Origin: Haliclona indistincta | Lineage: Eukaryota; Porifera; Demospongiae; Haplosclerida; Chalinidae | Direction: 5' to 3' | DNA length: 64,000 nucleotides | Assembly (NCBI GenBank): GCA_964017065.1 | Contig: OZ024788.1 | Location: 3,922,887 to 3,986,886, forward strand | Shown here: positions 5,483-62,590 of the stretch, piece after piece | Position numbering within the stretch: position 1 is the first letter of the stretch | Layout: each line of letters begins with the position of its first letter | Position numbers and translations under genes: made by a program | Notes under the pieces: model-generated | Database searches by the model: none | What the model saw: only the letters and a program-made list of their open reading frames with translations | What the model was told of the DNA's origin: nothing

Positions 5483-5504
5483 CCACTAGCCGAGACCAGA
5501 GGAG

Positions 5505-7154: not shown

Positions 7155-7235
7155 TACATGTATGCTAGCATGCATTATGCTATCATACCGAAAATTCCAA
7201 AAATTATGCTAAAATAATCGGCTCAAGCCTATCTA

Positions 7236-8859
7236 ATGGCGTCTTATTTTCGCGGGCCAACTAATGCACGCACAAGAATCGGCGAGACGCTAAGTCTTAC
7301 TGTTAGTCCAGACGAATCTATCGAGAATGTCAAACAAAAGCTCCAGGACCAGATCGGGATACCACCTGACCAGCAGCGCCTCATCTTTTCTGAGCAGCAT
7401 CTTGAAGACAAGCGTATCTTGAGTGATTATAACATTCATAAAGACTCCACTCGGACGCTTCACCTTGTACTTCGTCTAAAGAGTCAAATGCACATTTTTG
7501 TTGAAAACACTTCTGGCAACACAGTCACTCTTGAGGTTCATCCAGATCATTCAATCGAAACCATCAAGCATCATCTTCAAGATTTGATTCGACCTCACCG
7601 ACATTCTCTGGTCTTTGCTGGCAAACAGCTTGAGGATTGTAATACCTTGAGATACTACAACATACAAAATAAATCAACTTTCACCTTGTTCCTTGTGATA
7701 CCATGCTGATTTATGTTAAAACCCTTACCGATAAGACTATCACACGTGAGGCTGTCTCAGCTGACTCCATTGAATATGTCAAGCAGATGATCCAGGAAAA
7801 GGAGGGGATTCCAATTGACAAGCAGCGTCTCATCTTTGCTGCCAAGCAGCTTGAAGATCGTCATACCCTAGGTTATTACTACATTCAGAACGAATCATAT
7901 ATCCATCTTATTCTTCGTCTGAGTGGTGGTATGCAGATTTTTGTCGAGACACTTACTGGCAAGACTATCACTCTTGATGTTGATCCAGCTGACTCCATTG
8001 AGAATTGTAAACAGAAAATTCAGGACAAGGAGGGAATTCCCCCTGACCAGCAACGTCTCATCTTTGCTGAAAGGCAACTAGAGGATGGTCGTACTTTGAG
8101 TGACTACAACATTCAAAAAGAGTCGATTCTTCACCTTGTTCTTTGTTTGAGAGGAGATAACTCAATACCTGATATGCAGATTTTTGTTGAATCCTCTTTT
8201 GCCGAGACAATAACTTTTTTGGTAACCAAAACCGAATTCGTTAAGGATGTCAAACAGAAGATCAAAAAAATTACCAAAGTTCCACCTGATCAGCAACGTC
8301 TTACATATTCTGGACTTATTCTTGAAGACGGACGACGCCTATGCGAGTACAATATCAGTACTGATTCTACGATAACGTTAGCTCATGTGATTGAAATCTA
8401 TGTCATTATAATTGATAATGAGCAAATCACAAGAGTCCCACAGGGAGTGGGAGTGAAGCTTGCTGCTGAAGTAAAACTTTCTGATTCTCGTACAGTAAAG
8501 CATACATATGAGTCTTGTAGTGAAATCCAGAAATCATCCTTAGCTCATCCACTTGATAGTAGTCCTACAGAACGACAAGAACTGACTTTACGTCTTTTCA
8601 AGCAAACGTAGCATCAGTCATCCTTGACAAGTGGGAAGATGTGGCTATTGAACTAGACCTACCAATGGCTACCATTACTACTATCGAAAGAGAGAGACAA
8701 GGAAATTTCCGACATTGCTTTGCTAAAGTATTTGATCACTGGCAGAAGAACCCCACCCCTCAGCGACCGTTCTGTTGGGACACTGTTGTCAAAGTGCTGA
8801 AGTCACCCTCTGTTAATGAACCAGTACTAGCTAGAAACATATCACAACAATTTTGCTGA
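7236..8859 (+). pseudogene. Poly-UBL Death-domain gene, disrupted (locus A)
   Basis: The locus encodes five ubiquitin-like modules, a linker and a Death domain, in three frames. Frame 1 (7236-7709) holds UBL1 and UBL2. Frame 2 (7703-8611) holds UBL3, UBL4 and UBL5 and the linker with [16 protein letters not shown]. Frame 3 (to 8859) holds the Death domain with [16 protein letters not shown] and ends ISQQFC. UBL4 is the closest to ubiquitin, with [18 protein letters not shown] and [17 protein letters not shown]. Comparison with paralogues shows two single-base losses, near 7700 and near 8597. The first leaves ATGCTGA, where a start overlaps the stop. No introns are seen. The N-terminus lacks the MGNL start of the related loci at 48.3 and 58.1 kb. 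Disruption could be assembly error, but two lesions favour a pseudogene. Confidence 0.8.
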
Positions 8860-25766: not shown

Positions 25767-26329
25767 TGTTTACCGAGATAATGTTTTTATAATGACGTAA
25801 TAGGTTGGGCTATGCGAATACATCTGAAGACAAAGAATATTAGCTAGATCTGATGAGGTGTACACTACAGTAGTAACACTAGTTTCCACAGATAGGGTAA
25901 GTCTGATAGAACATGTATGCGTGAAATACTTCTTTACTCATTCAGTTTATTATAGTGATTATTCACATCAGAATAATCATATCGGAGTCCTTCTGCTGCT
26001 TCATTTTTCCACTTTCCTCTATGCCCATGCATGGTACTATAGTGCGAAACACAAAAAATATTACTTGTTCCGCATCACAACATATCTAATGCTGCATTCT
26101 TGTTTTGCAAATGACCTGAAGCTATGTACTTTTTACTACTACTTTCTACTTGAATGTTTTGAAAATGAGCTTTCCTTCCTTATGTTCAAATTCAAAATCA
26201 GCTGTAACCAGTGACCAATACTTTTAACATGTTGTTCTTCAGTCCAGGCTGTCCAGCGCAGTTAATTCATCTTTTACATCATCTGCACGTACATCAGTAT
26301 TTTATTTACTTTCTTTCATGGTACTGCTG
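25767..26329. other. No gene recognised
   Basis: AT-rich stretch. The open frame at 25858-26214 is rich in aromatic residues and looks non-coding. Confidence 0.4.
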
Positions 26330-26667: not shown

Positions 26668-27813
26668 TCAACAAAATTGTTGTGAGATTTTCTTAGCTAG
26701 TACTGGTTCATTAACAGAGGGTGACTTCAACACTTTGACAACGGTGTCCCAACAGAACGGTCGCTGAGGGGTGGGGTTCTTCTGCCAGTGATCAAATACT
26801 TCAGCAAAGCATTCTTGCAGATTTCCATGTTTCTTGGCTACAATCGGGCGAATGATGGACATTGGTAGGTCTAGTTGAATACCCACCATCTGCCACTTGT
26901 CAGGAATGGCTGCTGCTACATTCTCCATAAAAAGACGCAATGACAGATTATGTTCTGGAAGACAATGCGGATCAAGTGAAGATTTTTGTTGACCATGACT
27001 ACAAGGATTATATTTTATAGCAAGGGTACCAGTAGGAAGTTGTAGAGCAAATCTCATTTTTTCAGTAATATGACATGTTTCCACCCTCTGTTGAACTTTT
27101 GCGATGATTTGTTCGCCTGTGGTAGTGACAGAAATGTTAAAGGTGTCCTCGCGAACAGCAAGCATTATCATGGATTGATCAGTGATCTTGTAATCATTTA
27201 AGTACTGTCCATCTTCAAGAATTTTGTCTAAGTATGTCAGTAACTGCTGGTCAGGTAAAATCCCCTTCTTTCTCCAATCTTCTTTTTGACATTCTTAATG
27301 GAATCGGTTGGATCCATGTTCAAAGCGATTATCTTGCCAGCTATAGTCTTGACTAAAACCTGTATCTGACGAAGTATAAGGTGAAGAGTCGACTCTTTTT
27401 GGACGTTGTACTCACTCAAGGTATGATGATCAGCTGCTTGCCAGCAAAAATGATACGCTGGTGGTTTAGTGGGATACCCTCTTTTTCTTGAATTTTCTGT
27501 TTGACAACTTTGATAGTGTCAGCTGGATCTACTCTTACAATAATTGTCTTGCCAGTAAGGGTCTTGACAAAAACATTCATGCCGTTTTCTTGAATTACGA
27601 TTTGAAGAGCTGATTCTTCTTGAATGTTGTAGTGACTCAAAGTATGATCATCTTTAAGCTGCCTGCCATTAAAAATGAGACACAGTCTATCAGATGGAAT
27701 TTCCTCTACATTCTTGATTTTCATCTTAACATTCTTGATTGAATCTGTTGGGGCAACCTCAATGGTCATAGTGCTGCCAACTTTATTTTTTAGATGAATC
27801 TTTATTCTTCGAC
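26668..27813 (-). pseudogene. UBL-Death-domain gene, disrupted (locus F)
   Basis: Reading leftwards, a splice acceptor at 27814-27820 opens an exon with UBL1 ([17 protein letters not shown]...), UBL2 ([38 protein letters not shown]), UBL3 (IQVLVKTIAGKIIALNMD), the second-type linker (FNISVTTTGEQIIAKVQQRV) and the Death domain ([34 protein letters not shown]) ending ISQQFC. Frame changes lie near 27418 and 27270. With three UBLs this is the shortest locus and the only one in the family where I see a splice site ahead of the coding part. The upstream exon was not identified. Confidence 0.8.
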
Positions 27814-27820
27814 CTGTAAA

Positions 27821-28146
27821 ATGATAACAAAATTAAGAATGTGATAGACAATTAACAATAAACTCATGAGTTTGATCTTCTTTGCAGGGAAAGGACAGAC
27901 TACCATGCTATTTGCTGTAAGTACAGCTGCTTCATATCAACTAAAATCACTGAATGAATCAAAAGGTGTATGATTCAATATTCAAGAACAGTGACTTAGT
28001 CAATTATTTGCAGTTATTAACTACTCAAAAAATTAATCATCCATGTCAACACTGTGAAACAATATTTTTTCAAGTTGTGGCGAAGAAACTTAGTACAATA
28101 GGCATATAAGAGGGATTTCATGAAAAATTAATTGGAAAAGATATGG
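27821..28146. other. No gene recognised
   Basis: This should contain the 5' end of locus F, but I could not identify an exon. It is AT-rich. Confidence 0.35.
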
Positions 28147-31746: not shown

Positions 31747-32457
31747 AATCTAGTTGATTCATGGTTCAGTCTCCGTCAGATGGGAATATCACTGGCAGGC
31801 CCGAGAAAATTGTGAGAAGAGAAAAATTAATAATTATTGGGTGATTTTTATATTTTGATAACAATTCAGTATTATTATTATTGATACTCACATGATAGTT
31901 ACTATAATGCAATAACAATGTAGTAAAACATACGGTAACATCAGTAAGTTATGGTAAAACTGGTATGAAAGTACTCCTAACATACATAATTATACACGTA
32001 CCTTTTATTGTTTGGGGCTGCGCCCTCCAGATCCCTGCATTAATTCACTTAACAGTGATGTGCACCCCCTTCTAAAATAATCCTGGGTATGGGCCAGTCT
32101 CTGAGTGTCATTGAAGTCCTTCTGCTCATTCTTCAAAATTATTTCCACTGGTAAGTGCTCACAGCATACTTTCAAAGGTGTATAATGTACAAAGAATTCC
32201 TTTTTCATGGTTTGAGAGGTGACACAAAAAGATAGGCATTTACAGTACACAAAAAAGACAATTTTTAACGTACAACGGAGGAGTTTTGTGGAATTACTGT
32301 GAAAATTTTAATCGTGAATATCTCAATTTGTCACATTTGTTTTCTCTCACAAATTTCCCGCTATACAGTACTCGGACAAGTTGTTTTGAGCTATGTTCCT
32401 GTGTTCTTACATGTAGTGTGTGGTCTTACAGTTGATTTGTTTTTCGTAATACTACAG
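31747..32457. other. No gene recognised
   Basis: AT-rich spacer. The 81-codon frame at 32005-32250 (minus) has no recognised motif. The right edge contains the polypyrimidine and acceptor sequence of the next transporter exon. Confidence 0.4.
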
Positions 32458-32735
32458 GACAATAGCTCCAGTGTTTGCTGGTAGTATCTACTCTGTCTCG
32501 CTGACTAATGGTCTCGGCTTTCCTCTGAACTACTATCTCATCTTTATCATATTTGGTATCATCATGCTGGTAGTGATGATGATGGTGGCTTGCCTGCCCC
32601 AGACCATCAACAAGCAGAAAGTAGTGAACAATGATGAAGATATCGTCAGTAGAGAAACAGTGAGTTAGTAAACCAGAGACAAGAACAGAAACACTCATCA
32701 GTGACGACATCACATGATCAGTTAAATTTGAAAAA
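32458..32735 (+). pseudogene. ZIFL-like MFS terminal exon, solitary copy
   Basis: It follows an acceptor (actacag) and encodes IAPVFAGSIYSVSLTNGLGF, FIIFGIIMLVVMMMVACLPQ and NNDEDIVSRET. A deletion of 11 bases in the tail shifts the frame and brings a stop at 32668. It faces locus B tail-to-tail, but later repeat insertions (32765-34325) have pushed them 1.7 kb apart. Confidence 0.75.
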
Positions 32736-34465: not shown

Positions 34466-36684
34466 TCAGCAAAACTGTTGTGAGATTTTCCTAGCTAATA
34501 CTGGTTCATTGATAGTAGGTGATTTTAACACTTTGACAATAGTGTCCCAACAGAACAGTCGCTGAGGAGTGGGGTTTTTCTGCCAGTGATCAAATACTTT
34601 AGCAAAGCAAAGGCGTAAATTTCCTTGTGTCTCTCTTTCGATAGTAGTAACGGTAGCCATTGGTAGGTCTAGTTCGATCCCCATATCTTGCCACTTGTCA
34701 GGAATAGCCGACGATATGTTTGCCTGAAAAAGACGTAATGACAGCTCTTGCTGTTCTGCAAGACTATGCAAATCAAGTGAATGTGCGAGAGTGCAGTTTT
34801 TGCTGAAAGGGTCATATTTTATAGCTAAGGCGCCAGTTGGTAGCCGTATAGCAAATCTCGTCTTTTCATTGATATGGCACGTTGCCACTCTTTGTTTGCC
34901 AGAAGTAGTCACTGAGATTTGAAAGGTGTCTTCCTCACGAACAGCAAGCATTATTGTGGATTGATGAGTAATCTTGTAGTAACTTAGGAATTGTCCATCT
35001 TCAAGGTTTTCTCCTGTATATGTCAGTAGCTGCTGGTCAGGCGGAATCCTTTCTTTATCGTGGATCATCTGCTTGAGACACTCAATAGATTTGGTTGGAT
35101 CAATGTTAACAGTAACCGTTTTGTCAGAGGGTGTCCTGATGAAGATTTGTATGACTGATGCTACGATCTTCTCTTTGGATTGCTTTTGTTGTTCTGTAGG
35201 ACTACTTTCAAAACTATAGAGTCATTCTTTACAGCAAAAGAACTGGGAAGTTGAACTTCAGCAGCAAGCTTCACTCTCACTCCCTGTGGGACTCTTGTGA
35301 TAATGTGATCATCAACGATAGTGACAGAGATTTGAAAAGATATTCTAAGCTCTAATGTGCCTGAATTAGCGACACAAAAGACATCTAGACAGCATTCGTC
35401 TTCAAGCTCTATTCCATTGTATGTGAGTAACTGCTGGTTAGGTAAAACTCCCTCTTTCTCATGGATCTTATCTTTGACTTTTGCAATAGTGTCGGTGCTT
35501 CTGAAATCAAGTGAAAATATGCCATTAGAGGTCTTAATACAAATGCATATATCATATACCAAACGAAGAACAAGGTAAAGAGTTGATCCCTTTATAATGT
35601 TGTAATCGCTCAAAGTAACACCGTCCTCAAGTTCCTTGCCACCAAAGATAAATCGTTGCTGGTCATGTGGAATGCCCTCATTGTCCTGAATTTTAATTTT
35701 GACATTCTCAATGTAGTCAGCTGGATGAACCTCAAGAGTGATGATCTTGCCATTAACGGTCTTGACAAATATCTGTATACCACTAGTGCTCAGACGAAGA
35801 ACAAGATGGATAAGTGATCCCTTCTGAATGTTGTAATAACCTAGGGTATGACGATCTTGAAGCTGCTTACCAGCAAAGATAAGACGCTGCTGGTCAGTAG
35901 GAATCCCCTCCTTTTTCTGGATCATCTGCTTGACATATTCGATGGAGTCAGCTGAGACAGCCTCAAGTGTGAATGTCTTACCGGTAAGTGATTTAACAAA
36001 ACATTTACTGGTGTTTCTTTCAAAGCGAACAGTTGACTTATTTTGAACGTTGTAGTAGCTCAAGGTATTGCGATCCTCAAGCTGCACACCAGCAAAGATA
36101 AGACGCTGCTGGTCAGTTGGAATCCCCTCCTTTTCGTGGATCATCTGCTTGACATATTCAATGGAATCAGCTGAGGCAGTCTGAAGTGTGAATGTCTTAC
36201 CGGTAAGTGATTTAACAAAAAATTTCATGGGATTTCTTATATAAGTAGTGAGGTGAACAGTTGACTTACTTTGTATGTTATAGTAGCTCAAGGTATTATC
36301 ATCCTCAAGCTTTTCGCCAGCAAAGACAAGAAGAGGTTGTCGGTGAGATGGAAGCAAATCTTTGAGATGCTGCTTAACATTCTCGATTGAGTGATCTGGC
36401 TGAACCTCAAGAGTGACTGTGTTGCCATGGCCAAAAGCGTTTTTAACAAAAATGTGCATTTGACTCTTTAGACGAAGTACAAGATGAAGCGTCGGAGTGG
36501 AGCCTTTATGATGAATGTTATAATCACTCAAGATACGCTTGTCTTCAAGATGCTGCTCAGCAAAGATGAGGCGCTGCTGGTCACGTGGTATCCCGATCTG
36601 GTCCTGAAGCTTTTGTTTGACATTCTCGATGGAGTCTTCTGAAGTAACAGTAAGAGTTAGCGTCTTGCCGGTTCTGATACTCAT
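34466..36684 (-). pseudogene. Poly-UBL Death-domain gene, disrupted (locus B)
   Basis: The first frame (36684 to 35161, 507 codons) starts [13 protein letters not shown] and holds six UBL modules and the first linker ([20 protein letters not shown]). The second frame (to 34466) holds UBL7, the second linker and the Death domain ([34 protein letters not shown]) ending ISQQFC. Relative to the intact paralogue at 53.6 kb there is one extra UBL (the duplicated third module), a 2-base insertion near 35215 and a deletion near 35178. The start is supported by an upstream in-frame stop and by identity with the paralogue. If the frame were restored by error correction, the protein would be the longest of the family, but as read it is broken. 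Confidence 0.8.
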
Positions 36685-36699
36685 TTGACTGTTGGTTGG

Positions 36700-37190
36700 C
36701 TGCCTGTGTAGTAAGAGCGCTAGCTAGTAGATACAAACTTGAGTGAGAGTCGAGGCTAGGGCCAAGGTGAGTAGACGTGTGAGCAACGAGCCTTGCCGCC
36801 TAGCTTAGTTCGTGAGTTAATGCTATTTGCTCACTTTGTTTACCGTTGCTGGCGATCTTGACTTCTCCAAAGGCAAAGCTGTCCACAGTTGACCGCCTAG
36901 AAGCTGATAGGTTATAATTTTACTACAGTTTAGCAGCGAAGGTCCAGAAAAATTGTGTAAGCTAGCAAGCTATGGAAGCTATCTTATGCGTGTGACTGCT
37001 GTGCCAAACACTGTAGACAGTGTGGTTAGCACTGATTGGCTTCTGATTGCATTACTAAAGCACTGCATTGTGATTGCTGTACAAAAATCCTGTATAAATG
37101 CATCTGCAGTTGCTGTGTTTGTGGAATGGTGGATAGTTACGTTTTTGTTTTTTTTACAATACTCACACATGATAGCTAAAAGCTAATGTA
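36700..37190 (-). repeat. Inverted relative of the 14.8-15.2 kb repeat
   Basis: About 36830-37140 matches 14800-15130 in inverted orientation, for example CTTCTCCAAAGGCAAAGCTG and the complement at 15080-15105, and GTTGCTGTGTTTGTGGAATG. It is a third location of the family-1 repeat body. Confidence 0.6.
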
Positions 37191-46760: not shown

Positions 46761-48326
46761 TCAGCAAAATTGTTGTGAGATGTTTCTAGCTAGTACTGGT
46801 TCATTAACAGTAGTGGACTGCAACACTTTGATAACAGTGTCCCAACAGAACGGTCGCTGAGGGGTGGGGTTCTTCTGCCAGTGATCAAATACTTTACCAA
46901 AGCAATGTCGTAAACTTCCTTGTCTCTCTCTTTCGATAGTAGTAATGGTAGCCATTGGTAGGTCTAGTTCAATAGCCACATCTTCCCACTTGTCAGGGAT
47001 GACTGATGCTACGTTCGCTTGAAAAAGACGTAAAGACAGTTCTTGTTGTTCTGTAGGACTACTATCAAGTGGATGTGCTGAGGATGATTTCTGACTTTCA
47101 CTACAAGAGTCATACTTGATAGAGTAAGAACCACAATTGGGAATTTGAATTTCTGCAGCAAGCTTCACTCCCACTCCTTGTGGGAGTCTTGTGATGATTT
47201 GGTTGTCGACAATTGTGACAGAGATTTGGAACGATTGACTAAGAATTATCGTGGACCAATTGCTAATACCGTAGTCACATAAGCGGCATTCATCGTCTAG
47301 CGTTTCCCAGTATACACGAGCAATTGCTGGCTAGCCAAAATTCCCTCTTTTTCCTGGATCTTCTGCTTGACAACCTGAATAGTGTCAGTTAGTCTAACAT
47401 CTAGTAGAATTTTGTCATTAGAAGTCTTGATAAAAATTATCTTGCCATAGCTTGAACGAAGAACAAGGCGAAGAGTTGACTACTTTTCTATGTTGTATTC
47501 CTCCAAGGTATAAATATTCTCGAGCTGCTTGCCAGAAAAGATGATACGCTGCTGGTCAGGTGGAATGCCTTCTTTTTCTTGTACCTTGTGTTTGAGATCC
47601 TCAATAGATTCAGTTGGGTTAACCATAAGAATGAGGGTCTTGCCAGTTGGAGTCTTGACAAAAACTTGCATGCCACCACGTAAACGAAGAACAACATGAA
47701 GAGTTGACTCATTTTGAATGTTGTAATCACTCAAGATATCACTATCCTTGAGCTGCCTGCCAGCAAAGATGATACGCTGCTGGTCAGGTGGAACACCTTC
47801 CTTATCCTGGTACTTCTGCTTCACATACCCAATGGAGTCAGCTGGGTTGACTTCAAGGGTGACAGTCCTGCCAGTAAGGGACTTGATATAAATTGTAGTA
47901 GCTCAAGGTATTATCATCCTCAAGCTGCACGCCAGCAAAGACAAGAGATTGTCGGTGAGGTGGAAACAAGTCCTTGAGATGCTGCTTAACATTCTCGATT
48001 GTGTTGTCTGGATGAACCTTAAGAGTGATGGTCTCATCTGCAGGGGTTTGAACAAAAATTAGCATACAATTTTTTGCACGAAGAACAAGGTGAAGTGCTG
48101 AATTCCACTCCTTATGAATGTTGTAGTCACTCAAAGTATGATTATCCTCAAGCTGCTTTCCAGCAAAGATGAAGCGTTGCTGGTCAAATGGTATCCCCAT
48201 CTGGTCCTGGAGCTTTTGTTTGACATTCTCGATAGAGTCGTCTGAACTAACAGTAAGATTTAGCGTCTCGCCGATTCTTGTGCCTGCATTAGTTGGCCGG
48301 CGAACACAAGACGTCAAGTTACCCAT
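46761..48326 (-). pseudogene. Poly-UBL Death-domain gene, disrupted (locus C1)
   Basis: The start is [15 protein letters not shown], followed by UBL1 and UBL2 (48326-47853), then UBL3 and UBL4 (to 47480), a broken UBL5, the linker ([17 protein letters not shown]) and the Death domain ([34 protein letters not shown]) ending ISQQFC at 46761. Against its twin at 56442-58070, C1 has a deletion of about 50 bases near 47888, a GAG-to-TAG nonsense near 47488 and a one-base loss near 47307. The M-G-N-L-T-S start fits the N-myristoylation consensus, with a nearby Cys, so an intact version could have been membrane-anchored. UBL3 ends in LRLRGG. Confidence 0.8.
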
Positions 48327-48696
48327 AGAAGCTGAGAAGTGAAACCGAAACTAACGGTACCGGTTCGAAATTCGTCACGACAGGGCTCTTTTTGCTTGGC
48401 CTCTAACTGTACCGTCTCGTGATAATATCTGGACAGTGAACGATTCTTCCTCTGCTTGTTCTGTAGACGACGTCGCGCGTGCTCGATTTCTTGCTATTGT
48501 TCAATTTGTTGGTGGATCGTATGGATGAGGAAGAAAATTACGGTAAGTCGCGTGGTGCCATTGTTCTCGAATTGCATGTATGTGTGCTACATGTATTAAC
48601 TGTTTATTGTCTTCATGTACATATTATTATTTGTTTGCAATGTCACAAAATTATGTCAGCATTATACGAAAATTAATAATTATTATAAAATTTTTG
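48327..48696. other. Intergenic spacer between loci C1 and E1
   Basis: Contains the C1 promoter side and the E1 3' flank; duplicated at 58071-58416. No exon was supported. Confidence 0.5.
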
Positions 48697-50820
48697 TTAC
48701 TCGTCGATAAAATCTTTTGCAATCTTTCTAGCTAGTTCAGGCTCATCAATAACAGCTGACTTCAGCACTTTGACAACAGTGTCCCAACAGAACGGTCGCT
48801 GAGGGGTGGGATGCTTCTGCCAGCGATCAAATACTTCAGCAAAGGAACGATGCAGATTTCCATGTATCTCTGCTTCTATCGTACGAATGGTAGACACTGA
48901 TAGGTCTAGTTCAAAACCCACCATCTGCCATTTGTCGGGAATGGCTGTCGCTACATTCTCTAAAAAAAGACGCACAGACAGTTCTTGTTGTTCCGTAGGA
49001 TCACGAGATGAGAAATGTTTCAGGCTTTGCGGAGTCCTGCATATCATAGCACTAGGGGCAGTAGAGCATGCTTCATCAGTGAGATTGTGCGTGGTCATTC
49101 TTTGTTTGTCATCAGCAGAAGTGGAGGTTAGAAAGTTATTCTCACGCGTGTGAGCAAGAATTATAGTGGATTGACTCTTGATGTTGTAGTGAAGTAGACA
49201 GTACCCATCTTCAAGCTCGATTTGAGAGTATTTAAGCAACTGCTGGTCAGTTGGGATTTGCATTTCATTCTGGATCATCTGTTTCACAGTATCAATAGAA
49301 TCAGCTTGATCAACCTCGAGAGTGATGGTCTTGCCGGTAACAAGAGACTTGACAAAGATTTGAAGACAAGGAAGAACAAGGTAGAAAATGGACTCATCTT
49401 CAATGTTAAGGTTTCTCAATGTTTGCCAGTCTTTAAGCCTTTTTCCAGCAAAGGTGAGGCACTGTTGGTCAAGAGGAATCCCTTCTTTTTCCTGTATCTT
49501 CTGCTTCACAGTTTCAATGGAGTCAGCTGGGTCAACTTCAAGAGTAACGCTACTGCCGGTTCAACATTTGACAACAATCTGCATATAAGGAGGAATAAGA
49601 TAAAGTACGGATTCATTTTGAATGTCGAGGTCACTTAAAGTAAGGTGATCTTTGAGTCTGTTTCCAGCAAAGGTGAGACACTGCTGGTCAGGTGTAATCC
49701 CCTCCTTGACTTGGATCTGCTGTTTGACTACTTCGATGGAGTCGGCTGGATCAACCTCAAGAGTGATGATGCTGCCGGTAATGGTCTTTACAAAGAGCTG
49801 CATGCAAGGAGGATCAAGTTCAAGAATCGAACCATCACTAATGCTATAATAATTCAAGTTGTTGCTGTCCTCAAGCTGATTGCCGGCAAAGATGAGCCGC
49901 TGCTCATTGATTTGAATGTTCTCTTTGTCTTGTATTTTTTGCTTGATGATAGCAATGGAGTCACTTGGGTCTACTTCAAGAGTGATAGTGTTACCGGTAA
50001 GAGTTTTAACATATATTCGCATGCAATGGTGAACAGTTGCCTCTTCTTGAATATAAGAAGTACCACTCGAAATAGGAATACGAAGTGAAAGGTGAAGAGT
50101 CGACTCTTTTGTAATATTGTAGTCACTCAATGTACGTCCATTCTCAAGCGACTTGCAAGCAAAGAAGAGACACTGATGTTCCGGTAACCAACCGTCTTTG
50201 TCCTGAATCGTCTGCTTGACATTCTCAATGGAGTCAGCTGGGTCAACCACAAGAGTGATAGTCTTACCAGTAAAAGTCTTCACAAATACCTGATACGTAC
50301 ATGTATTACTGTTGGAAGACCAACTATCTTCACTTAGCCGTATACGTAAAACTAAGTGAATAGTGTTGTCCTTTTGGATGTTGTAGTCACTCAGGGTACG
50401 ACCATCATTAAGCTGTTTGCCGGCAAAGATGAGACGTTGCTGGTCAGGTGGAATACCTTCCTTGTCATGGATCTTCTGCTTGACATTCTCAATGGAGTCA
50501 GCTGAATCAACCTCAAGAGAGATGGTCTTACCAGAAAGAGTCTTGACATAAATATTGTAAGTCGGAGTGGTGCCAAGATCGTTATTTGTGCCAGGTCGAG
50601 ACCTTTGTTGAACAAGGTGCAGTATATTTTCCCCTTGAACGTTGTAGTCAGCCAAAGTATAGCTGTTCTTAAGCTGCTTACCAGCAAAAACAAGGCATTG
50701 TTTTCCTAACGAAATTCCCAGTCTGTCCTCGATTTTATTCTTGACAGTCTCAATAGAATCAGTTAAATCAACCTCTAGAAAAATGGGCTTGCCGGTACGA
50801 GGCTTGATGATAATTCGCAT
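48697..50820 (-). pseudogene. Poly-UBL Death-domain gene with one nonsense codon (locus E1)
   Basis: From [18 protein letters not shown] there are seven UBL modules, with spacers of 15-25 residues after the first three, a linker and a Death domain ([34 protein letters not shown]) that ends KDFIDE. The frame is open except for TGA at about 49560 within UBL6, where the twin E2 has CGA (Arg). It is a C-to-T change at a CpG. About 708 codons would otherwise be read through. UBL2 is close to ubiquitin ([36 protein letters not shown]). The terminal sequence (FIDE rather than QQFC) and spacers separate the E type from the A/B/C/D/F types. Start chosen because the twin has a stop just upstream. Confidence 0.8.
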
Positions 50821-51772
50821 CATTAGATTCACTTTCTTGCAGTAACTTCTCCAAGCGCTCATGCTAAGTATATGTTGCTGCACAGTTGTAGCCCTTCGCT
50901 GATGATGGCTGATCGCCGCGGCTATCATAACACAGAGAAAATCCCTTGTAAAGTCCCTTGCTTACCAGACTACTAAGTACTGTGATTACAGTAATAGAAG
51001 TCAGTGCGCGAAGGAGTAAACAATTCTGTATACGGCGAATTCCAGACATGGCTGCATGCCCATTCCATTTTTAGCAATTCCTTATACGGCCGGCCATGCA
51101 CACGGAACCGCACATGCGTAGTAAGCAGCGGTAGAAAATGCAAATTGCTTTCCACTGTGGTTCTTCGCTTGAGGGGACTCTCGGAGCGTCTTGTCTAGTA
51201 CGACGGACGGTCACAGGAACGTTTCATGTTATCACGATGCGTACGCCCTGTTTCTCAGGGGTTAATCGTAGGTTTATAAATTATTCCATAAAAGGAATCG
51301 CTATTAATTTTGAAATCGCCGTGTGCACTAAGAAAGTAAAAAACACGCAGGTTTCGCGCCTTCTTCGAGCCTGAACGGCTACTTTCTTTGACAAAAATTT
51401 CACCCTCTGGACCTGCCCACAACTTTATAAAAACTGCCCGAGCATAACTGGTCATACGGTCCTCTGAACTGAGCTGTTCGCTAAAGTTGACGCAGAAACA
51501 GTGCACCGGTAGCGAGTCGGCCAGTAACCACGAGCCAATTACAGTTGTATTATAGATAGTTTGGTGTGAAGGAATGTTCGCGGTCAATATCAATTCAAAA
51601 CTGCGGATGTGACGTCAGGTTTGAACGCCGCCATGTTTTTTGGAGGGATAGATTTGTACAGCGTCCATTGAGTGACGTCACGTATTTTAGCTCTACCAAG
51701 ACTCCTTGGAACCATATTTCGGTTAGCTTCACAAAATCAACTATGGTGAACTATTGTAAATTCTCATCACAG
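50821..51772. other. Upstream region of loci E1 and the plus-strand transporter copy
   Basis: No exon was supported. TGACGTCA-like words (GATGTGACGTCAGG at about 51606 and AGTGACGTCACG at about 51671) and GCCGCCATG (51627) suggest a promoter-like segment. The N-terminal half of the transporter is not here. Confidence 0.4.
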
Positions 51773-52396: not shown

Positions 52397-53532
52397 GTGT
52401 ATATCTATTATGGTCTTTCTTGATCATTGTTCTCATGATGCTACGGTTGTCAGGAACTATTTGTTTTGGAGCTCTCTTCCTCTTTATCAATAATATAACT
52501 CTGTCACGTTTGATAAGCTCGGAGCAGTCAATGGACTAGGGACCACACTCACTGCATTATTCAGGTGACTCAGAGATAGGTATAAACAGTACACAAGATG
52601 CATGATACTTATCGTATTGCGGGAAAATATTTTTGAAAAATTACTGACTCTGTTCGTGAAAGTTTTTATGGGAAAGATCAGCTAATATCCGCTTGTTTTG
52701 GTACATTTTCAAATCTATTTTCTCTCACGAAATTTCCAGCTGTACGCTAGACCAAGTTGTTCAATCCAGCGGTTGGGGTATGTGTAGCCGTAATGTGCAT
52801 CATGAATTGTCTGAGCTTCTGGGTCAACTTTTGTCCCTGCCTTAGCGAACAAATGCCATTGAGAGTCTGTAGGCGTCGCAGTAAGCTAGCGCGGAGAAAT
52901 GAGTCTGTATCTAAAAGTCCAGGCGACTACTCGCCTTCTTAGAGCCATAACTCTCGAACAGAAACTTTCAGACAAGATTTTTACCCATTGGCACTGCTCT
53001 TGATTTCGTACAACCAGCGGGACAACAAGGTCATAATGTTCGCTAACTTTTGACGCAAAAACTGTTCACCAGAAAGTTGCTATTTACCGAGCTACAGAGA
53101 GGACGTCCACTTCCATACAGCTTTGTTGTGGTCGCCGCATAACGATATTCATAAGCAACCTGATGATATTCACAGTGTGCAATCTATGCACATAATTGTG
53201 TGCAGTGAATGGCTTACATCAATATTTTTTTCCCTCTTGTATACTGCAGGACAGTAGCTCCAGTGTTTGCTGGTAGTATCTACTCTGTCTCACTGACTAG
53301 TGGTCTCGGCTTTCCTCTGAACTACAATCTCATCTTTATCATATTTGGTATCATCATGCTGGTAGTGATGGTGATGGTGGCTTGCCTGCCCCAGACCATC
53401 AACAAACAGAAAGTAGTGAACAATGATGAAGATATCGTCAGTAGAGAAACAGAAGAACACGAATTAGTAAACCAGAGACAAGAACAGAAACACTCATCAG
53501 TGACGACATCACATGATCATGATAAAGTTTAA
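51773..53532 (+). pseudogene. ZIFL-like MFS transporter, C-terminal half, broken copy
   Basis: Exons at 51773-51880, 51956-52047, 52105-52202, 52398-52564 and 53250-53532 match the five minus-strand exons at 9738-11825 one for one, with the same splice sites and with exons 2, 3 and 5 of identical length (92, 98 and 283). Exon 1 has one extra base (in TTATCATTATTGTGCC) and exon 4 has five extra bases (near ATCAATAATATAAC), so both are out of frame. The last exon is intact. The paired tail-to-tail neighbour 60 bases away is the intact UBL-Death gene. Confidence 0.75.
52240..52395. repeat. (CCCT)n and (CT)n tract in a transporter intron
   Basis: A CCCT array followed by a CT array fills the intron before exon 4, directly upstream of the acceptor CTCTCCAG. 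It is the shorter equivalent of 10953-11346. Confidence 0.9.
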
Positions 53533-53592: not shown

Positions 53593-55614
53593 TCAGCAAA
53601 ATTGTTCTGAGATTTTCCTAGCTAGTACTGGTTCATTAACAGCAGGGGACCGCAACACTTTGACTACTGTGTCCCAACAGAACGGTCGCTGAGGAGTGGG
53701 GTTCCTCTGCCAGTGATCAAATACTTCAGCACAACAACGCTGTAGGTTCACGTGTTTCTCTGCTTCAATTGAGCGAATGGTAGCCATTGGTAGGTCTAGC
53801 TCCAAACCCACCATCTGCCACTTGTCAGGAATGGCTGCTGCTACGTTCTCCAGGAAAAGGCGCATAGTTGGTTCTTGTTGTATCGGAAGACTACGTAAAT
53901 CAAGAGAATGTGCAAGAGAAGGTTTTTGGCATCTTTCACTAAAAGGATCATACTTGATAGCTAGGGTACCAGTTGGAAGTTGTAAAGCAAATCTCATTTT
54001 TTCTTTAATATGACACGTTGCCACTCTTTCTTGAACTTTTGTGATTATCTGCTCGCCAGAGGTAGTGACTGAGATATTAAAGGTTTCCTCACGAACAGCA
54101 AGCATTATTATAGATCGATGAGTAATGCCGTAGTCAGATAAGCATCGTCCATCTTCTAGTGTTCTGTCAGAGTATGTAAGCAACTGCTGATTGAGTGGAA
54201 TCCCTTCTTCATTCTGGATCATCTGCTTGAGACACTCAATAGATTTGGCTAGATCGATGTTAACAGTAACCGTTTTGTCAGAGGGTGTCTTGATGAAGAT
54301 CTGTATGACTGATGCTACGTTCGCTTGAAAGTGACGACAGGATTGCTTTTGTTGGTCTGTAGGACTACTTTCAAAACTAGAGTCATTCTTTGCAGCATAA
54401 GAACTGGGAAGTTGAACTTCAGCAGCAAGCTTCACTCCCACTCCCTGTGGGACTCTTGTGATAGTGTGATCATCAACGATAGTGACAGAGATTTGAAAAG
54501 ATATTCTAAGATTTAATGTCGCTAAACAACCAACATCACAAAAGGTACGTAGACAGCATTCATCTTCAAACTCTTTTCCATTGTATGTGAGTAACTGCTG
54601 GTTAGGTAAAACTCCCTCTTTCTTATGGATCATATCTTTGACTTTTGCAATAGTGTCTGTCCTATTGAAAGAAAGTGAAAATGAGCTATTAGAGGTCTTA
54701 ATACAAATGTATATATCCCAACGAAGAACAACGTGAAGAGTTGCTTCTTTTTGAATGTTGTAATCGCTCAAAGTACGACCATCCTCAAGTTGCTTGCCAG
54801 CAAAGATGAGACGTTGCTGGTCAGGTGGAAATCCCTCCTGGTCCAAAAGTTTATGTTTGACATTCTCAATGGTGTCAGCTGGATCAACCACAAGAGTGAG
54901 ACTAATGCCAGTAAGGGTCTTGACAAAAATCAGCATACCACCTCTCAGACGAAGAACAAGATGCATAGTTGATTCCTTCGGAATGTGGTAATAGCCTAGG
55001 GTATGACGATTTTCAAGCTGATTGCCAGCAAAGATAAGACGCTGCTGGTCAGGTGGAAACCCCTCCTTTTCCTGGATCATCTGCTTGACATATTCAATGG
55101 AGTCAGCTGAGACAGCCTCGAGTGTGATAGTCTTACCGGTAAGCGTTTTAACAAAAATTTTCATGGGATTTGTTACATAAGGAGTGAGGTGAACAGTTGA
55201 CTTGTCTTGAATATTGTAGTAGCTCAAGGTATTATCATCCTCAAGCTGTTTGCCAGCATAGACAAGAAGAGATTGTCGTTTAGTTGGAAGAAAATCTTTG
55301 AGATGCTGCTTAATAATTTTGATTGAGTGATCTGGCTGAACCTCAAGAGTGACTGTGTTGCCAGAAGGGGTTTCAACAAAAATGTGCATTTGACTCTTTA
55401 GACGAAGTACAAGGTGAAGCGTCCGAGTGGAGTCTTTATGCTGAATGTTATAATCACTCAAGATACGCTTGTCTTCAAGATGCTGCTCAGCAAAGATGAG
55501 GCGCTGCTGGTTAGGTGGTATCCCGATCTGGTCCTGAAGCTTTCGCTTGACATTCTCGATGGAGTCTTCTGAAGTAACGGTAATAGTTAGCGTCTCGCCG
55601 GTTCTGATACTCAT
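53593..55614 (-). CDS. Poly-UBL Death-domain protein, intact (locus D)
   Basis: A single open frame of 673 aa from [13 protein letters not shown] (55614). UBL1 1-75, UBL2 76-150, UBL3 151-226, UBL4 227-300, divergent UBL5 301-372, beta-rich linker 373-436 with [19 protein letters not shown]6 437-511, second linker 512-583 and Death domain about 584-673. UBL3 starts [18 protein letters not shown] and ends LRLRGG; UBL4 has [18 protein letters not shown] and [13 protein letters not shown]. The Death domain shows [34 protein letters not shown] and [10 protein letters not shown]. Death domains assemble with others in apoptosis and innate signalling; UBLs bind ubiquitin receptors or mimic ubiquitin chains. 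A fused linear chain could be a constitutive ubiquitin-like scaffold recruited by Death-domain partners (inference). The frame stays open to 55809, but paralogue B has a stop upstream of MSIRT, so that start is preferred. The linker's HFQANVASV followed by UBL6 is a leftover Death-domain helix. Confidence 0.85.
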
Positions 55615-56269
55615 TTGACTGTCAGTTGGCTGCCTGGAGAGTAAGAACGCTAGTAGATACAAACTTGAGTGAGAGACGATGCTAGGGCCTAGCCTGGGTG
55701 GGTACGTGTGAGAAAGAGCCCCGCCTACATGGATACCACTTACATGTACAAGTCGAGTAATGTCTACAAAATGGTCTAGCATTATAGTACCTAGGAAGCT
55801 TTTCTGCATAAAATCTTTCTCTGTTTAAAACAGAACCATGATTAGTAGTCTAATGTCTGAAACTAGCAACAAACTATTCAGAGTGATTGGTGCACTGCAG
55901 TGCTGCAGAAACTAAAAATAAAATCAAAAAATTATTTTACTATCCATGTAACTATATCCATGTTGCATGTTATTTATAATCAGAATACCAAGATCAAACT
56001 CAGTAGTTGAGCTGAGCCGCACATCAGTAAAACCACTGTAGACTGCTGAGTTTAACTTTCACAGCTAGCTGCAGCAACACCGTAGTTTCCTGATGGTCGC
56101 TAAAATTAATGACATTCTCAGACTAAAAAATAACAGTCTGGTGTGATTAAGCTGTTGGATATAAAAGTTGTACCACGCACTTATTATAATTCATGTAAAT
56201 AAAATGTCTATCTGCGATCTGACTGAATTATTAGTGTGTCTACGGAATTTACATCATGATCATCAGTGT
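55615..56269. other. Upstream region of locus D
   Basis: Sequence to about 55700 still matches the upstream of locus B (GTTGGCTGCCTG). Beyond it no gene was recognised. Confidence 0.4.
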
Positions 56270-56441: not shown

Positions 56442-58070
56442 TCAACAAAATTGTTGTAAGATGTTACTTGCTAGTACTGGTTCATTAACAGCAGGGGACT
56501 GCAGGACTGCAGCACTTTGACAACAGTGTCCCAACAGAACGGTCGCTGAGGGGTGGGGTTCTTTTTCCAGTGATACTTTAGCAAAGCAATGTCGGAAATT
56601 TCCCTGTCTCTCTCTTTCGATAGTAGTAATAGTAGCCATTGGTAGGTCTAGTTCAATAGCCACATCTTCCCACTTGTCAGGAATGATTGATGATACATTC
56701 GCTTGAAAAAGACGTAAAGACAGTTCTTGTCGTTCTGTAGGACTACTATCAAGTGGATGTGCTGAGGATGATTTTCTGACTTTCACTACAAGAGTCATAC
56801 TTGATAGAGTAAGAACCACGATAGGGAATTTGAACTTCTGTAGCAAGCTTCACTCCCACTCCTTGTGGGAGTCTTGTGATAATTTGGTTATCAACGATTG
56901 TGACAGAGATTTGGAACGATTGACTAAGAATTATCGTGGACCAATCGCTAATACCGTGGTCACATAAGCGGCAATCATCTTCTAGTGTTTTCCCAGTATA
57001 CATAAGCGATTGCTGGCTAGCTAAAATTCCCTCTTTTTCCTGGATCTTCTGCTTGACAACCTGAATAGTGTCAGTTAGTCTAACATCTAGTAGAACTTGG
57101 TCATTTGAAGTCTTGATAAAATTATCTTGCCATAGCTTGAACGAAAAACAAGGCGAAGAGTTGACTCCTTTTCTATGTTGTATTCCTCCAAGGTATAAAT
57201 ATTCTTGAGCTACTTGCCAGAAAAGATGAGACATTGCTGGTCAGGTGGAATGTCTTCTTTTTCTTGTATCTTGTGTTTGAGATGCTCAATAGATTCAGCT
57301 GGGTTAATCATAAGAGTGAGGGTCTTGCCAGTTGGAGTCTTGACAAAAACTTGCATTCCACCATGTAAACGAAGAACAACATGAAGAATTGACTCATTTT
57401 GAATGTTGTAATCACTCAAGGTATCACTATCCTTGAGCTGCCTGCCAGCATAGATGATACGCTGCTGGTCAGGTGGAACACCTTCCTTATCCTGGTACTT
57501 CTGCTTCACATGCTCAATGGAGTCAGCTGGGTTGACTTCAAGGGTGACAGTCTTACCAGTAAGGGACTTGACAAAAACATTCATGCCACCATCCCTTGAG
57601 CAAGGCATTAGTTGAACAGTTGACTTGTCTTGAATATTGTAGTAGCTCAAGGTATTATCATCCTCAAGCTGCACGCCAGCAAAGACAAGAGATTGTCGGT
57701 GAGGTGGAAACAAGTCCTTGAGATGCTGCTTAACATTCGCGATTGTGTTGTCTGGATGAACCTCAAGAGTGATAGTCTCGTCTGCAGGGGTTTGAACAAA
57801 AATTAGCATACAATTTTTTGCACGAAGTACAAGGTGAAGCGCTGAAGTCCATTCCTTATGAATGTTGTAGTCACTCAAAGTATGATTATCCTCAAGCTGC
57901 TTGCCAGCAAAGATCAAGCGCTGCTGGTCAAGTGGTATCCCCATCTGGTCCTGAAGCTTTTGCTTGACATTCTCGATGAAGTCCTCTGAACTAACAGTAA
58001 GATTTAGCGTCTCGCCAATTTTTGAGCCTGCATTAGTTGGCCGGCGAAAATAAGACGACAAGTTACCCAT
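56442..58070 (-). pseudogene. Poly-UBL Death-domain gene, disrupted (locus C2)
   Basis: The preferred start is [15 protein letters not shown] at 58070; four UBLs are open to 57210 (UBL2-UBL3 and UBL3-UBL4 joints with [18 protein letters not shown] and [18 protein letters not shown]). A CAG-to-TAG change near 57213, one-base shifts near 57120 and 56775, and a small deletion in the Death domain near 56572 break the rest. The domain order matches C1. The M-G-N-L-S-S start also fits N-myristoylation. Lesions differ from those of C1, so the twins decayed independently after duplication. Confidence 0.8.
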
Positions 58071-58416
58071 AGATCTCAGAAATGAAACCGAAACTAACGA
58101 TATTGGTTCGAAATTCGTCACGACAGGGCTCTTTCTGCCTGGCCTCTAACTGTACAGTCTCATAATAATGTCTGAACAGTGAATGATTCTTCTGCTGGTT
58201 CTGTAGACGACGTCGCATGTGCTCGATTTCTTGCTCTGGGGACGAGACTAGTGAATCGTATAATTAAGTTACGGTAAGTCGCGTGGTGTCGTTGCTATGT
58301 GTGTGCTATAACTGTCATGTACATATTATTATTAGTTTATACGCAATGTCACAAAATTATGTCAGCATTATGATAACAATAATCATTGTCTCAGTTAAAA
58401 CAAAATTATATTATTT
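58071..58416. other. Intergenic spacer between loci C2 and E2
   Basis: Equivalent of 48327-48696 with small indels. No exon was supported. Confidence 0.5.
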
Positions 58417-60524
58417 TTACTCGTCGATAAAATCTTTTGTAATCTTTCTAGCTAGTTCAGGCTCATCAATGACAGCTGACTTCAGCACTTTGACAACAGT
58501 GTCCCAACAGAACGGTCGCTGAGGGGTGGGGTTCTTCTGCCAGCGATCAAATATTTCAGCAAAAGAACGATGCAGATTTCCATGTCTCTCTGCTTCTATC
58601 GCGCGAATGGTAGCCACTGGTAGGTCTAGTTCAAAACCCACCATCTGCCATTTGTCGGGAATGGATGTCGCTACATTCTCTAAAAAAAGACGCACTGACA
58701 GCTCTTGTCTTTCCGTAGGATCACGAGATGAGAAATGTTTCAGGCTTTGTGGTGTCCTGCATATCATAGCACTAGAACATGCTTCATCAGTGAGATTGTG
58801 CGTGGTCATTCTTTGTTTGTCATCAGCAGAAGTGGAGGTTAGAAAGTTATTCTCACGCGGGAGAGCAAGAATTATAGTGGATTGACTCTTGATGTTGTAG
58901 TGAAGTAGACTGTACCCTCAATTTGAGAGTAGGTAAGCAACTGCTGGTCAGTTGGGACTTGCGTCTCATTTTGGATCATCTGTTTCACAGTATCAATAGA
59001 ATCAGCTTGATCAACCTCGAGAGTGATGGTCTTGCCAGTAACAAGAGACTTGACAAAGATTTGAAGGCAAGGAAGAACAAGGTAGAAAATAGACTCATCT
59101 TCAATGTTAAGGTCTCTCAATGTGTGCCAGTCTTTAAGCCTTTTTCCAGCAAAGGTGAGGCACTGTTGGTCAAGAGGAATCCCTTGCTTTTCCTGTATCT
59201 TCTGCTTGACCGTTTCGATGGAGTCAGCTAGGTCAACTTCAAGAGTAACGGTACTGCCGGTTCGACATTTGACAACAATCTGCATATAAGGAGGAATAAG
59301 ATAAAGTACGGATTCATTTTGAATGTCGAGGTCGCTTAAAGTAAAGTGATCCTTGAGTCTGTTTCCAGCAAAGGTGAGACACTGCTGGTCAGGTGGAATC
59401 CCCTCCTTGACTTGGATCTGCTGTTTGACTACTTCGATGGAGTTGGCTGGTTCAACCTCAAGAGTGATGGTGCTACCGGTAATGGTCTTTACAAAGAGCT
59501 GCATGCAAGGAGGAACAAGTTCAAGAATCGAACCATCACTAATGATGTAATAATTCAAGTTGTTGCTGTCCTCAAGCTGATTGCCGGCAAAGATGAGACG
59601 CTGCTCGCATTGATTTGAATGTTCTCTTTGTCTTGTATTTTTTGCTTGATGATAGCAATAGAGTCACTTGGGTCTACTTCAAGAGTGATAGTGTTACCGG
59701 TAAGAGTTTTAACATATATTCGAATGCAGTGGTGAACAGTTGCCTCTTCTTGAATGTAAGAAGTACCACTCAAAATAGGAATACGAAGTGCAAGGTGAAG
59801 AGTCGAGTCTTTTAGAATATTGTAGTCACTCAATGTACATCCATTCTCAAGCGGCTTGCCAGCAAAGAAGAGACACTGATGTTCCGGTAACCAACCGTCT
59901 TTGTCCTGAATCATCTGCTTGACATTCTCAATGGAGTCAGCTGGGTCAACCACAAGAGTGATAGTCTTACCAGTAAAAGTCTTCACAAATACCTGATATG
60001 TACGTGTATTACTATTGGAAGACCAACTATGTTCACTTAGCCGTATACGTAAAACTAAGTGAATAGTGTTGTCCTTTTGGATGTTGTAGTCACTCAGGGT
60101 ATATACGACCATCATTAAGCTGTTTGCCGGCAAAGATGAGACGTTGCTGGTCAGGTGGAATACCTTCCTTGTCATGGATCTTCTGCTTGACATTCTCAAT
60201 GGAGTCAGCTGGATCAACCTCAAGAGAGATGGTCTTGCCAGCAAGAGTCTTGACACAAATATTGTAAGACGGAGTGGTGCTAAGATCGTTTGTACCAGGT
60301 CGAGACCTTTGTTGAACAAGGTGCAATAAGTTTTCCGCTTGAACGTTGTAGTCAGCCAAAGTATAGCTGTTCTTGAGCTGCTTACCAGCAAAAACAAGGA
60401 ATTGTTTTCCTAACGAAATTCCCTGTCTGTCCTCGATTTTATTCTTGACAGTCTCAATAGAATCAGTTAAGTCAACCTCGAGAAAAATGGGCTGGCCGGT
60501 ACGAGGCTTGATGATAATTCGCAT
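58417..60524 (-). pseudogene. Poly-UBL Death-domain gene, disrupted (locus E2)
   Basis: The twin of E1 with the same order: seven UBLs, linker, Death domain ([34 protein letters not shown]) ending KDFIDE. Against E1 it has a 4-base TATA insertion near 60102, a 2-base insertion near 59608 and a deletion of about 10 bases near 58915, each shifting the frame. It keeps Arg (CGA) at the codon that is TGA in E1. Start from [18 protein letters not shown]; a stop lies four codons ahead. Confidence 0.8.
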
Positions 60525-60665
60525 CACTAGATACACTTACTTGCAGTAACTTCTCCAAGCGCGAATGATAGGTTACGTAGTATATATTATCTCTGCTGCT
60601 ACATGTACAGCTGATGGCTGATCGCTATCATAACAAAGGGAAAATCCCTTGTAAAGTCCCCTATA

Positions 60666-61217: not shown

Positions 61218-61579
61218 ACTACTACATGTAAGTACAGCGATGAACGGCACATTATTTGTTGACAAAAGTAAATTTATTGATAGAAGAGTTAGCAATGATC
61301 CTGTGACAACTCCTGCAGACCTTTCACTACATAAGGTAGAAATCAAAAATAGAAATGTCAAGACTGGGGCAATAAACACAAGTAGAATAATTGGGATAGC
61401 ATTTGCCTATTAGGTCGCTATGCAGAAAGAAAGAAAAGTCTATCAGATGTTTACACTAATTATTTTTTGAAAGCTTTGTTTATGGAGGGAGGGTTCTAGG
61501 TTTCTCGTGAAGTATCCGAAACCCTGTATTTAGATAAGGTTTCTGAACCGACTGTCTTGTATACCAAGAAGCAACTCAC
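61218..61579. other. 3' region of the second CARD-like gene
   Basis: A final exon of the gene at 61580-62367 is expected here, since exon 2 ends in a donor, but two alternative acceptors (near 61530 and 61410) leave its identity open. The 129-codon frame at 60990-61379 is hydrophobic but unsupported. Confidence 0.35.
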
Positions 61580-62367
61580 CAAGTGTGTTAGTAAGATGCT
61601 GTACTGATGGTCCCATAGGTATCATCACCCTATCAATGAATACTTGCAGCTTTGTTGGATCAGTCGCGATCTGTTTGCGTATTTCTTCCAGAATGTTACT
61701 AATACAAAGCTTGTTGTGGCCTGCCTTTGGATTAACGGCTGCATCTTTGACGTCAGGAGGAATTAGCCCCCTTGAATAGGCAGCTGCTGCAACACTACTG
61801 ACGCTATGCTGTAGCAGACTAGCCAGATCATCTTGGAAACGGACGAGTACTAGCTTGTCAGCCAAAGGATTTTCTCCACTGCGCACTTGTTCTGCAAGAA
61901 TTTTGGTGTTATGACTGCTATCCCATTTCCCCAAACTCACCAATTCTCTCCACCAGATGTCGAAACGAGGCTTCTGAAGCCACTATCAACATGAACACGT
62001 CCATATAACCCTTTGCCTCGGCGGGATCCGCGGCCCTGCGTAGTTTCTTTCCAATGTTCCGCAGCAAGTACAGCGTTCTGTCTTGTTGAGACATGGGCAC
62101 TTTGTCAAGCACATCGTCCATCAAAGCCTCGCCGATCAGCTCAGCGGAGTAGGCGCTGGAAGCCACACTGCTACAGGACAGCTCTAGCTGCATCTCAAGC
62201 ATTTCGATTGACATTGAGAAAACCTTCTCGGCGGTTGCCTTCCCCGCACTTTGATCGGTAGCAACGTCAACGTCCATAGCTTGCATTTGTGCGCCAGACA
62301 TTGAGAATGGGTGTATTGTTACACAACAGTCGAGTTCAAGGGGTAGCACTTCCTCTGCTGCTATCAA
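61580..62367 (-). CDS. Two-domain CARD-like (death-fold) protein 2
   Basis: Exon 1 (62367 to 61941) and exon 2 (61891 to 61580) join in frame, splitting the same Ile-Gly/Glu codon boundary as in the paralogue at 24916-25766. Domain 1 has LELSCSSVASSAYSAELIGE, LYLLRNIGKKLRR and EASFRHLVERIGE. Domain 2 has FQDDLASLLQHSVSSVAAAA, CISNILEEIRKQIATD and GPSVQHLTNTLGE. Exon 2 ends at a GTGAGT donor, so a short last exon is missing from this model. Start candidates are ATG 62367, 62301 and 62277. The helix pattern suggests two CARD-like or related death folds and no other domain; function is inferred only as an adaptor. Confidence 0.55.
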
Positions 62368-62590
62368 AACAAAAACTGCTCAGTGTAAACATGATTTCAG
62401 TTGTTCGCGAGCAAATCGCATTCATGTTTGCAGTAGTGATCATAGGTATAATTATGAATGCAACTCCCGTGCATACAGTACATGTAGTAAAGGCATAAAC
62501 ATGCACAGAAAATGGGTTGAGATGACTATAAAGATTTGTGGATATAACTGTTGTGAACTGTGTATTATTTGCAGGAGTTGTGTTTGTGAT
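62368..62590. other. Spacer between CARD-like gene 2 and the carrier gene
   Basis: Short AT-rich spacer; no feature supported. Confidence 0.4.

Follow-up and report, generated by a model that had tools for sequence, protein, structure and literature searches.

Can one animal gene carry, in a single reading frame, both a chain-like array of ubiquitin-like (UBL) modules and a Death domain, and what would such a protein do? This question is raised by positions 53593..55614 of a 64,000-nucleotide stretch of the sponge Haliclona indistincta (contig OZ024788.1, here C6:3922887-3986886; hereafter the window), taken from a genome of 144.0 Mb in 46 contigs. An open reading frame (ORF) was found on the minus strand at 53593..55809, translating to 738 amino acids (aa) if the in-frame ATG at 55809 is the start and to 673 aa if the start is the ATG at 55614. 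The plus strand across 53593..55614 is riddled with stops and the coding strand is minus. The coordinates and the single 673-aa frame given in the initial annotation were thus right, and the joining of UBL modules and a Death fold in that frame was confirmed by the ORF, Pfam, profile, model and fold comparison.

Pfam analysis of the protein revealed six ubiquitin stretches over the curated cut-off (PF00240, E 4.6e-115), bearing out the six modules first annotated, and six beta-grasp UBL folds were modelled in the 673-aa protein. In the full-length model the UBLs are good and the Death region and linkers poor (mean predicted local distance difference test, pLDDT, 67.2; predicted template modelling score, pTM, 0.25). 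Identity to the genome's own ubiquitin, taken as one unit of its ordinary polyubiquitin arrays (C3:5769531, C2:5476172), is 34% for module 5 and 49-78% for the other five. The near-identical units of a polyubiquitin gene, all processable at LRLRGG, were not found, the identities being 34-78% with only one Gly-Gly (GG) junction. This junction, between modules 3 and 4, brings together the traits of a linear-ubiquitin mimic, namely a distal Ile44 patch, a proximal Phe4 and GG-Met; with provisional lists of contact residues, 10/10 distal and 3/6 proximal contacts were scored. As in polyubiquitin and di-ubiquitin (PDB 2w9n, 2zvn), the folds stand head to tail, and modules 3-4 align over 148 residues with LRLRGG-Met intact; unlike polyubiquitin, the modules diverge by position, are mostly without GG and are fused to a Death domain. 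No Pfam match to NACHT, UBA or TRADD-N was found in the protein, Pfam possibly not covering the sponge clade of TRADD-N. The NCBIfam search gave only Rad23 and chance rows, and in the viral fold library nothing reached E 0.001, the top E value being 0.89; a Clandestinovirus protein came up there with a probability of 0.85.

For the C-terminal domain, PF00531 is the best Pfam family yet lies below its cut-off of 22.6 (14.8 bits in the whole protein, 18.8 alone); across the family 24 of 36 members match it at E up to 1, the best at 5.9e-4. The predicted model is a six-helix Death fold, and the domain is nearer the Death subfamily than CARD or PYD. Compared with solved structures, a profile of 25 close paralogues found only CRADD (E 0.16), and a profile including distant relatives found FADD (E 0.0053); unrelated proteins are among the weakest rows of the latter profile, at E 0.43 to 0.89. 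The Death-fold match on whose presence the initial annotation had staked its reading is therefore there by profile, model and fold comparison, with Pfam sub-threshold. The Death domains of FADD, TNFR1, RIPK1 and CRADD/PIDD share the fold and are the best profile matches; they are known to be joined to DED, kinase, CARD or receptor parts and are not known to be joined to UBL arrays.

A total of 150 hits were scored among 704 candidates in a family search with a 107-aa C-terminal query. At least 34 Death hits lie on C6:3.72-4.05 Mb, 30 of them on the minus strand and 13 in open frames 430 aa long or longer (C6:4637908 and C8:5865770 were tallied outside the cluster, and a second piece at 3819851 was merged). 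All 13 long frames hold at least four UBL rows ahead of Death in the part fetched. One extra copy each was found at C6:4.64 Mb and C8:5.87 Mb, the remaining scored hits being weaker relatives elsewhere. Another 30 proteins were matched in databases by their C-terminus (65-100% covered), each with at least three UBL rows (3 to 11, the 11 counting one split unit twice), and a further database search added eight more family proteins. Nine of these 30 match the own-genome DNA compared with an identity of 99.7% or more; the others, at about 49-91% (the top of the range being UBLs against polyubiquitin), may represent other species or further loci. Because UBL and Death parts share one frame in 13/13 long cluster frames, as far as each was read, and in the 30 database proteins, chance joining is excluded. 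The family architecture comprises an N1 cap, an N2 cap, a variable number of middle UBLs, a last UBL, a beta linker and Death. The family, which we take to be lineage-specific, is tandemly expanded, with many broken copies: eight copies and small fragments lie in the window, and the one at 53593..55614 is the sole copy open throughout. Among the literature matches listed, from a coverage mostly outside subscription journals, no family with a UBL array ending in Death was present.

Comparison of module positions was made in 20 proteins with a full N-terminus (the reported gene together with three own loci and 16 proteins from the database set of 30); nine scored proteins without, or starting inside, the N-terminal module and five unscored proteins were left out. 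The set holds near-duplicates (L030, L032, L033), and the P0020 array has one unit split into two partial rows. Since the rows share kinship, the counts are descriptions and not tests. The N1 and N2 caps average 60% and 54% identity to own ubiquitin, with GG in 0/20 and 1/20 and the Ile44 patch in 2/20 and 1/20, respectively. The first middle module averages 71% (GG 14/20, GG-Met 10/20, patch 11/20), the other middle modules 75% (GG 8/37, patch 22/37), the last module 49% (GG and patch 0/20 each) and the degenerate module of the double-linker type 36% (0/8 each). GG occurs at 23 of 105 junctions, spread over 17 of the 20 proteins; contacts average 8.0/10 distal and 4.4/6 proximal at these 23, and 5.0 and 3.2 at the other 82. 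The description of the array as a linear chain in the initial annotation is right only in part, GG being retained at some junctions while the cap and last modules are mostly without the Ile44 patch and GG tail.

Table 1. Coordinates of the UBL-Death gene, its parts, its paralogues in the window and the convergent small ORF.
Feature	Position	Strand	Remark
Intact poly-UBL-Death gene	53593..55614	-	673 aa from MSIRTGETL; stop codon 53593-53595
In-frame upstream extension	55615..55809	-	No recognisable domain; reaches first ATG; start codon uncertain
UBL module 1 (N1 cap)	55399..55614	-	Tail KSQ-M
UBL module 2 (N2 cap)	55174..55383	-	Tail TNP-M
UBL module 3	54946..55158	-	78% identity to own ubiquitin; Ile44 patch intact; tail LRLRGG-M
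Gly-Gly of the sole GG junction	54937..54942	-	Module 3 to 4
UBL module 4	54718..54930	-	78% identity to own ubiquitin; Phe4 intact
UBL module 5	54496..54708	-	Degenerate; 34% identity to own ubiquitin
Linker 1	54301..54495	-	Ends in remnant of Death-domain start
UBL module 6	54088..54300	-	Last UBL type
Linker 2	53866..54087	-	Beta-rich; no confident model
Death domain	53596..53865	-	Six helices (predicted); profile, model, fold comparison
Paralogue A	7218..8859	+	Broken, three frames
Paralogue B	26668..27832	-	Broken
Paralogue C	34466..36723	-	Six UBL, then frame change before last UBL, linker, Death
Paralogue	46761..48350	-	Broken; N-terminus MGNLTSC
Paralogue	48697..50961	-	One in-frame stop in sixth UBL; five UBL before, one UBL and Death after
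Paralogue	56442..58145	-	Broken; N-terminus MGNLSSY
Paralogue	58417..60536	-	Broken
Small ORF	53209..53532	+	One hydrophobic segment; convergent; possible companion gene exon; co-duplicated with family

The reported gene belongs to a double-linker type. Its linkers 1 and 2 are homologous, and the C-terminal end of linker 1 is a copy of the Death-domain start joined directly to module 6; a 74-aa query of linker plus Death start aligns to linker 1 over positions 1-74 at 79%. On these grounds two shorter, single-linker family members seem to have been joined in frame, close to the first Death helix, to make the double-linker gene. Among 44 scored candidates, 43 matched the beta linker, on C6 or at C8:5.87 Mb, and it turned up with no family other than the UBL-Death one.

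Analysis of nonsynonymous to synonymous substitution ratios (dN/dS, Nei-Gojobori) gave 0.29 for Death (median of 185 usable among 193 pairs, 21 sequences). For the whole C-terminal part the values were 0.51 in the double-linker group (15/15 pairs) and 0.38 in the single-linker group (15/21 pairs). By segment, six double-linker genes gave 0.97 for the middle UBL (bootstrap 0.56-1.77), 1.37 for the degenerate UBL (0.74-3.08), 0.45 for the last UBL (0.24-0.80), 0.24 for linker 2 and 0.26 for Death. Five single-linker genes, from the seven sequences used for the whole C-terminal values, gave 0.31-0.48 for UBL segments (middle UBL 0.31 and 0.40), 0.47 for the linker and 0.26 for Death. The L030/L032/L033 sequences, too close to decide, gave 0.59 for the UBLs (0.35-1.01) and 0.40 for linker plus Death (0.15-1.05). 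Positive selection on linker 1 (2.81) was rejected, with dS 0.02 and an unbounded bootstrap. Protein-level constraint holds for Death, for the last UBL at least and for every single-linker UBL tested, which supports translation of Death and UBLs in one frame. Either relaxed or diversifying selection could lie behind the raised middle-UBL value of the double-linker genes, neither being proven.

The two groups also start differently. Of the 20 proteins compared above, 12 are single-linker members, and ten of these, three being near-duplicates, begin with [66 protein letters not shown] or MGSWISWL; P0018 and P0031 are without an MG-type start. We take the MG-type N-termini to resemble N-myristoylation signals. 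The reported gene and its double-linker relatives begin with MSIRTGETL or similar, and a spliced start further upstream is possible.

Search of the genome for linear-ubiquitin machinery revealed HOIP-type matches (UBA at C2:7393786; RBR at C2:7390498 and C2:7390642) and a borderline UBAN match (C2:942179); neither family had a match in any of 14 control genomes. From these HOIP-like and UBAN-like matches, parts of the linear-ubiquitin system may exist in the genome and such signalling may be available. The OTULIN search, with zero matches anywhere including the controls, is uninformative. A complex of MDA5 CARDs, MAVS CARD and polyubiquitin (PDB 7dni, by its title) is alike in combining a Death-fold platform with a ubiquitin chain; there the ubiquitin is presumably a separate molecule, whereas here it would belong to the same polypeptide. 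In sponges, a study of Amphimedon describes large lineage-specific expansions in which Death-like domains have variable partners, with ubiquitin-system domains among TRADD-N partners (eLife 2021, PMC8195603). The TRADD-N proteins there have a Death-like domain at the N-terminus followed by TRADD-N, whereas the present Death domain is C-terminal after a UBL array. The NLR repertoire of Dysidea avara is rich in Death domains, with UBQ among the NLR domains drawn in a figure legend (PMC12909245); those are NACHT-LRR proteins, unlike the present protein. What appears new here, judged by the literature matches listed, is the UBL array ending in Death, sponge Death-like expansions with variable partners being already published (PMC8195603).

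We tentatively favour, as a quite possible reading, a family of single-frame Death-domain adaptors with a gene-encoded ubiquitin-chain-like arm; its architecture, predicted Death fold, purifying selection on Death and tandem cluster were computed, and its functional steps are what we infer. The predicted Death domain would nucleate or join a homotypic Death assembly, in which a middle junction of each subunit would present a Met1-type di-ubiquitin-like surface. This surface would recruit ubiquitin readers (kinase-carrying UBAN or zinc-finger proteins) to the platform with LUBAC dispensable, so that the gene would bypass the ligase step; in MG-starting members, N-myristoylation would tether the array to a membrane. 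The middle modules vary in number and outpace Death in one subfamily, a likeness to immune families in which the signalling end is constant and the arm varies. Several results weigh against the adaptor. The sole GG junction of the reported gene is weak on the proximal side (3/6), GG is missing from every junction in three of the 20 proteins compared (P0008, P0015, P0018), and L030, L032 and L033 have a glycine run, not Met, after GG and therefore no native Met1 linkage. No Foldseek match reached E 0.001, and seven of the eight window copies are broken. The provisional contact lists and the kinship among compared rows count on the same side.

Broken copies are also what a degenerating by-product of polyubiquitin recombination, without protein function, would leave, and frames shorter than 430 aa hold 21 of the 34 Death hits in the cluster, with the double-linker middle UBL, degenerate UBL and linker 1 unconstrained (0.97, 1.37, 2.81). 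This origin is nevertheless very unlikely given purifying selection on Death, linker 2, the last UBL and single-linker UBLs, the 13 long open frames, and recurrence of the fusion in 30 proteins from databases, of which 21 fall short of near-identity to the own-genome DNA compared. A polyubiquitin-like precursor, cleaved at GG-Met by host deubiquitinases into pieces working separately, would suit the first middle modules (GG 14/20, GG-Met 10/20); however, GG is lost in N1 (20/20), N2 (19/20), the last module (20/20) and other middle modules (29/37), so most of the protein is not processable into ubiquitin units, and we consider this improbable.

An unlikely alternative is a bait, in which the array, like an integrated decoy, would be targeted by pathogen ubiquitin-attacking enzymes (proteases, ligases, modifying enzymes), and attack, for example cleavage at an intact GG junction, would alter or free the Death part and start signalling. 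The double-linker contrast of middle UBL with Death (0.97, bootstrap 0.56-1.77, vs 0.26), the retention of few GG junctions among many lost, the MG N-terminus, which in many single-linker members is separated from Death by the GG junction, and a tandem cluster with many broken copies all fit a bait; yet single-linker middle UBLs are not elevated (0.31 and 0.40), and plain descent from polyubiquitin could explain the GG retention. Least expected of all is a non-immune scaffold, proteasome-shuttle-like or otherwise binding ubiquitin receptors through UBLs as in Rad23 or ubiquilin: NCBIfam Rad23 does match via UBL, above cut-off in P0020 (282 vs 207.3 bits) and below it in the reported protein and P0017, but this score stems from the repeated UBL stretches, the reported protein has no Pfam UBA match and the Death fold points to assembly signalling.

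The convergent small ORF lies 67 bp from the Death coding end. Searched for in the genome, it matched at 48 of 52 scored places, all but one of these matches falling on C6:3.65-3.98 Mb (47). The ORF is convergent within 300 bp at 14 of 34 Death hits, including 8 of 13 long frames; 2000 random placements averaged 1.2 such cases, with 6 as the maximum, using 37 of the 48 rows (rows below 3.72 Mb and the C10 row out; some rows being pieces of one copy). Because the observed pairing exceeds that maximum, the duplicated unit seems to include the small ORF. Further copies in the window lie at 5257-5490 and 9741-10043 (minus) and at 24531-24812 and 32450-32718 (plus). Upstream exons were looked for and not found, and membership of a known receptor was rejected, Pfam giving only weak transporter rows below cut-off.

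Other ORFs and loci were observed besides. The ORF at 31334-31726 (minus) matched CARD_2 (E 5.3e-06, 26.8 vs cut-off 28.2 bits) and is perhaps another Death-fold gene in the window; two ORF pairs, 25012-25769 and 61530-62379 (both minus), are alike by eye, with no Pfam match over cut-off. A family relative at C6:4001918-4003039 (L044) has four UBLs and a beta linker and stops before any Death domain. A 776-aa open frame at C9:5799522-5801849 (L053) has nine divergent UBL modules and no Death domain by Pfam. Three loci on C2 and C4 (L054, L055, L056) are alike, with one UBL and then a common stretch, the Pfam match of L054 being UBL only. Dense Pfam Death clusters occur at C8:11.89-12.24 Mb, C10:4.28-4.37 Mb and C7:8.30-8.45 Mb, many frames being about 750-1500 aa and possibly NLR-like.

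To our knowledge, in animals studied so far ligases add ubiquitin chains to Death-fold platforms. A bolder and quite improbable idea is a ubiquitin tripwire, in which one or a few retained GG junctions would serve as bait, pathogen or host enzymes cutting or modifying the array would trigger the Death platform, arrays differing in length and sequence between copies would cover many enzymes and MG-starting members would be membrane-anchored; in a milder form, the array would act as a linear ubiquitin chain built into the protein, recruiting kinases with no ligase. If true, a multigene family with a chain-like array and Death in one polypeptide would be nature's parallel to engineered linear-ubiquitin fusions, would offer a ready test of whether the chain alone suffices for signalling, and would constitute a new class within the immune repertoires of early-branching animals.
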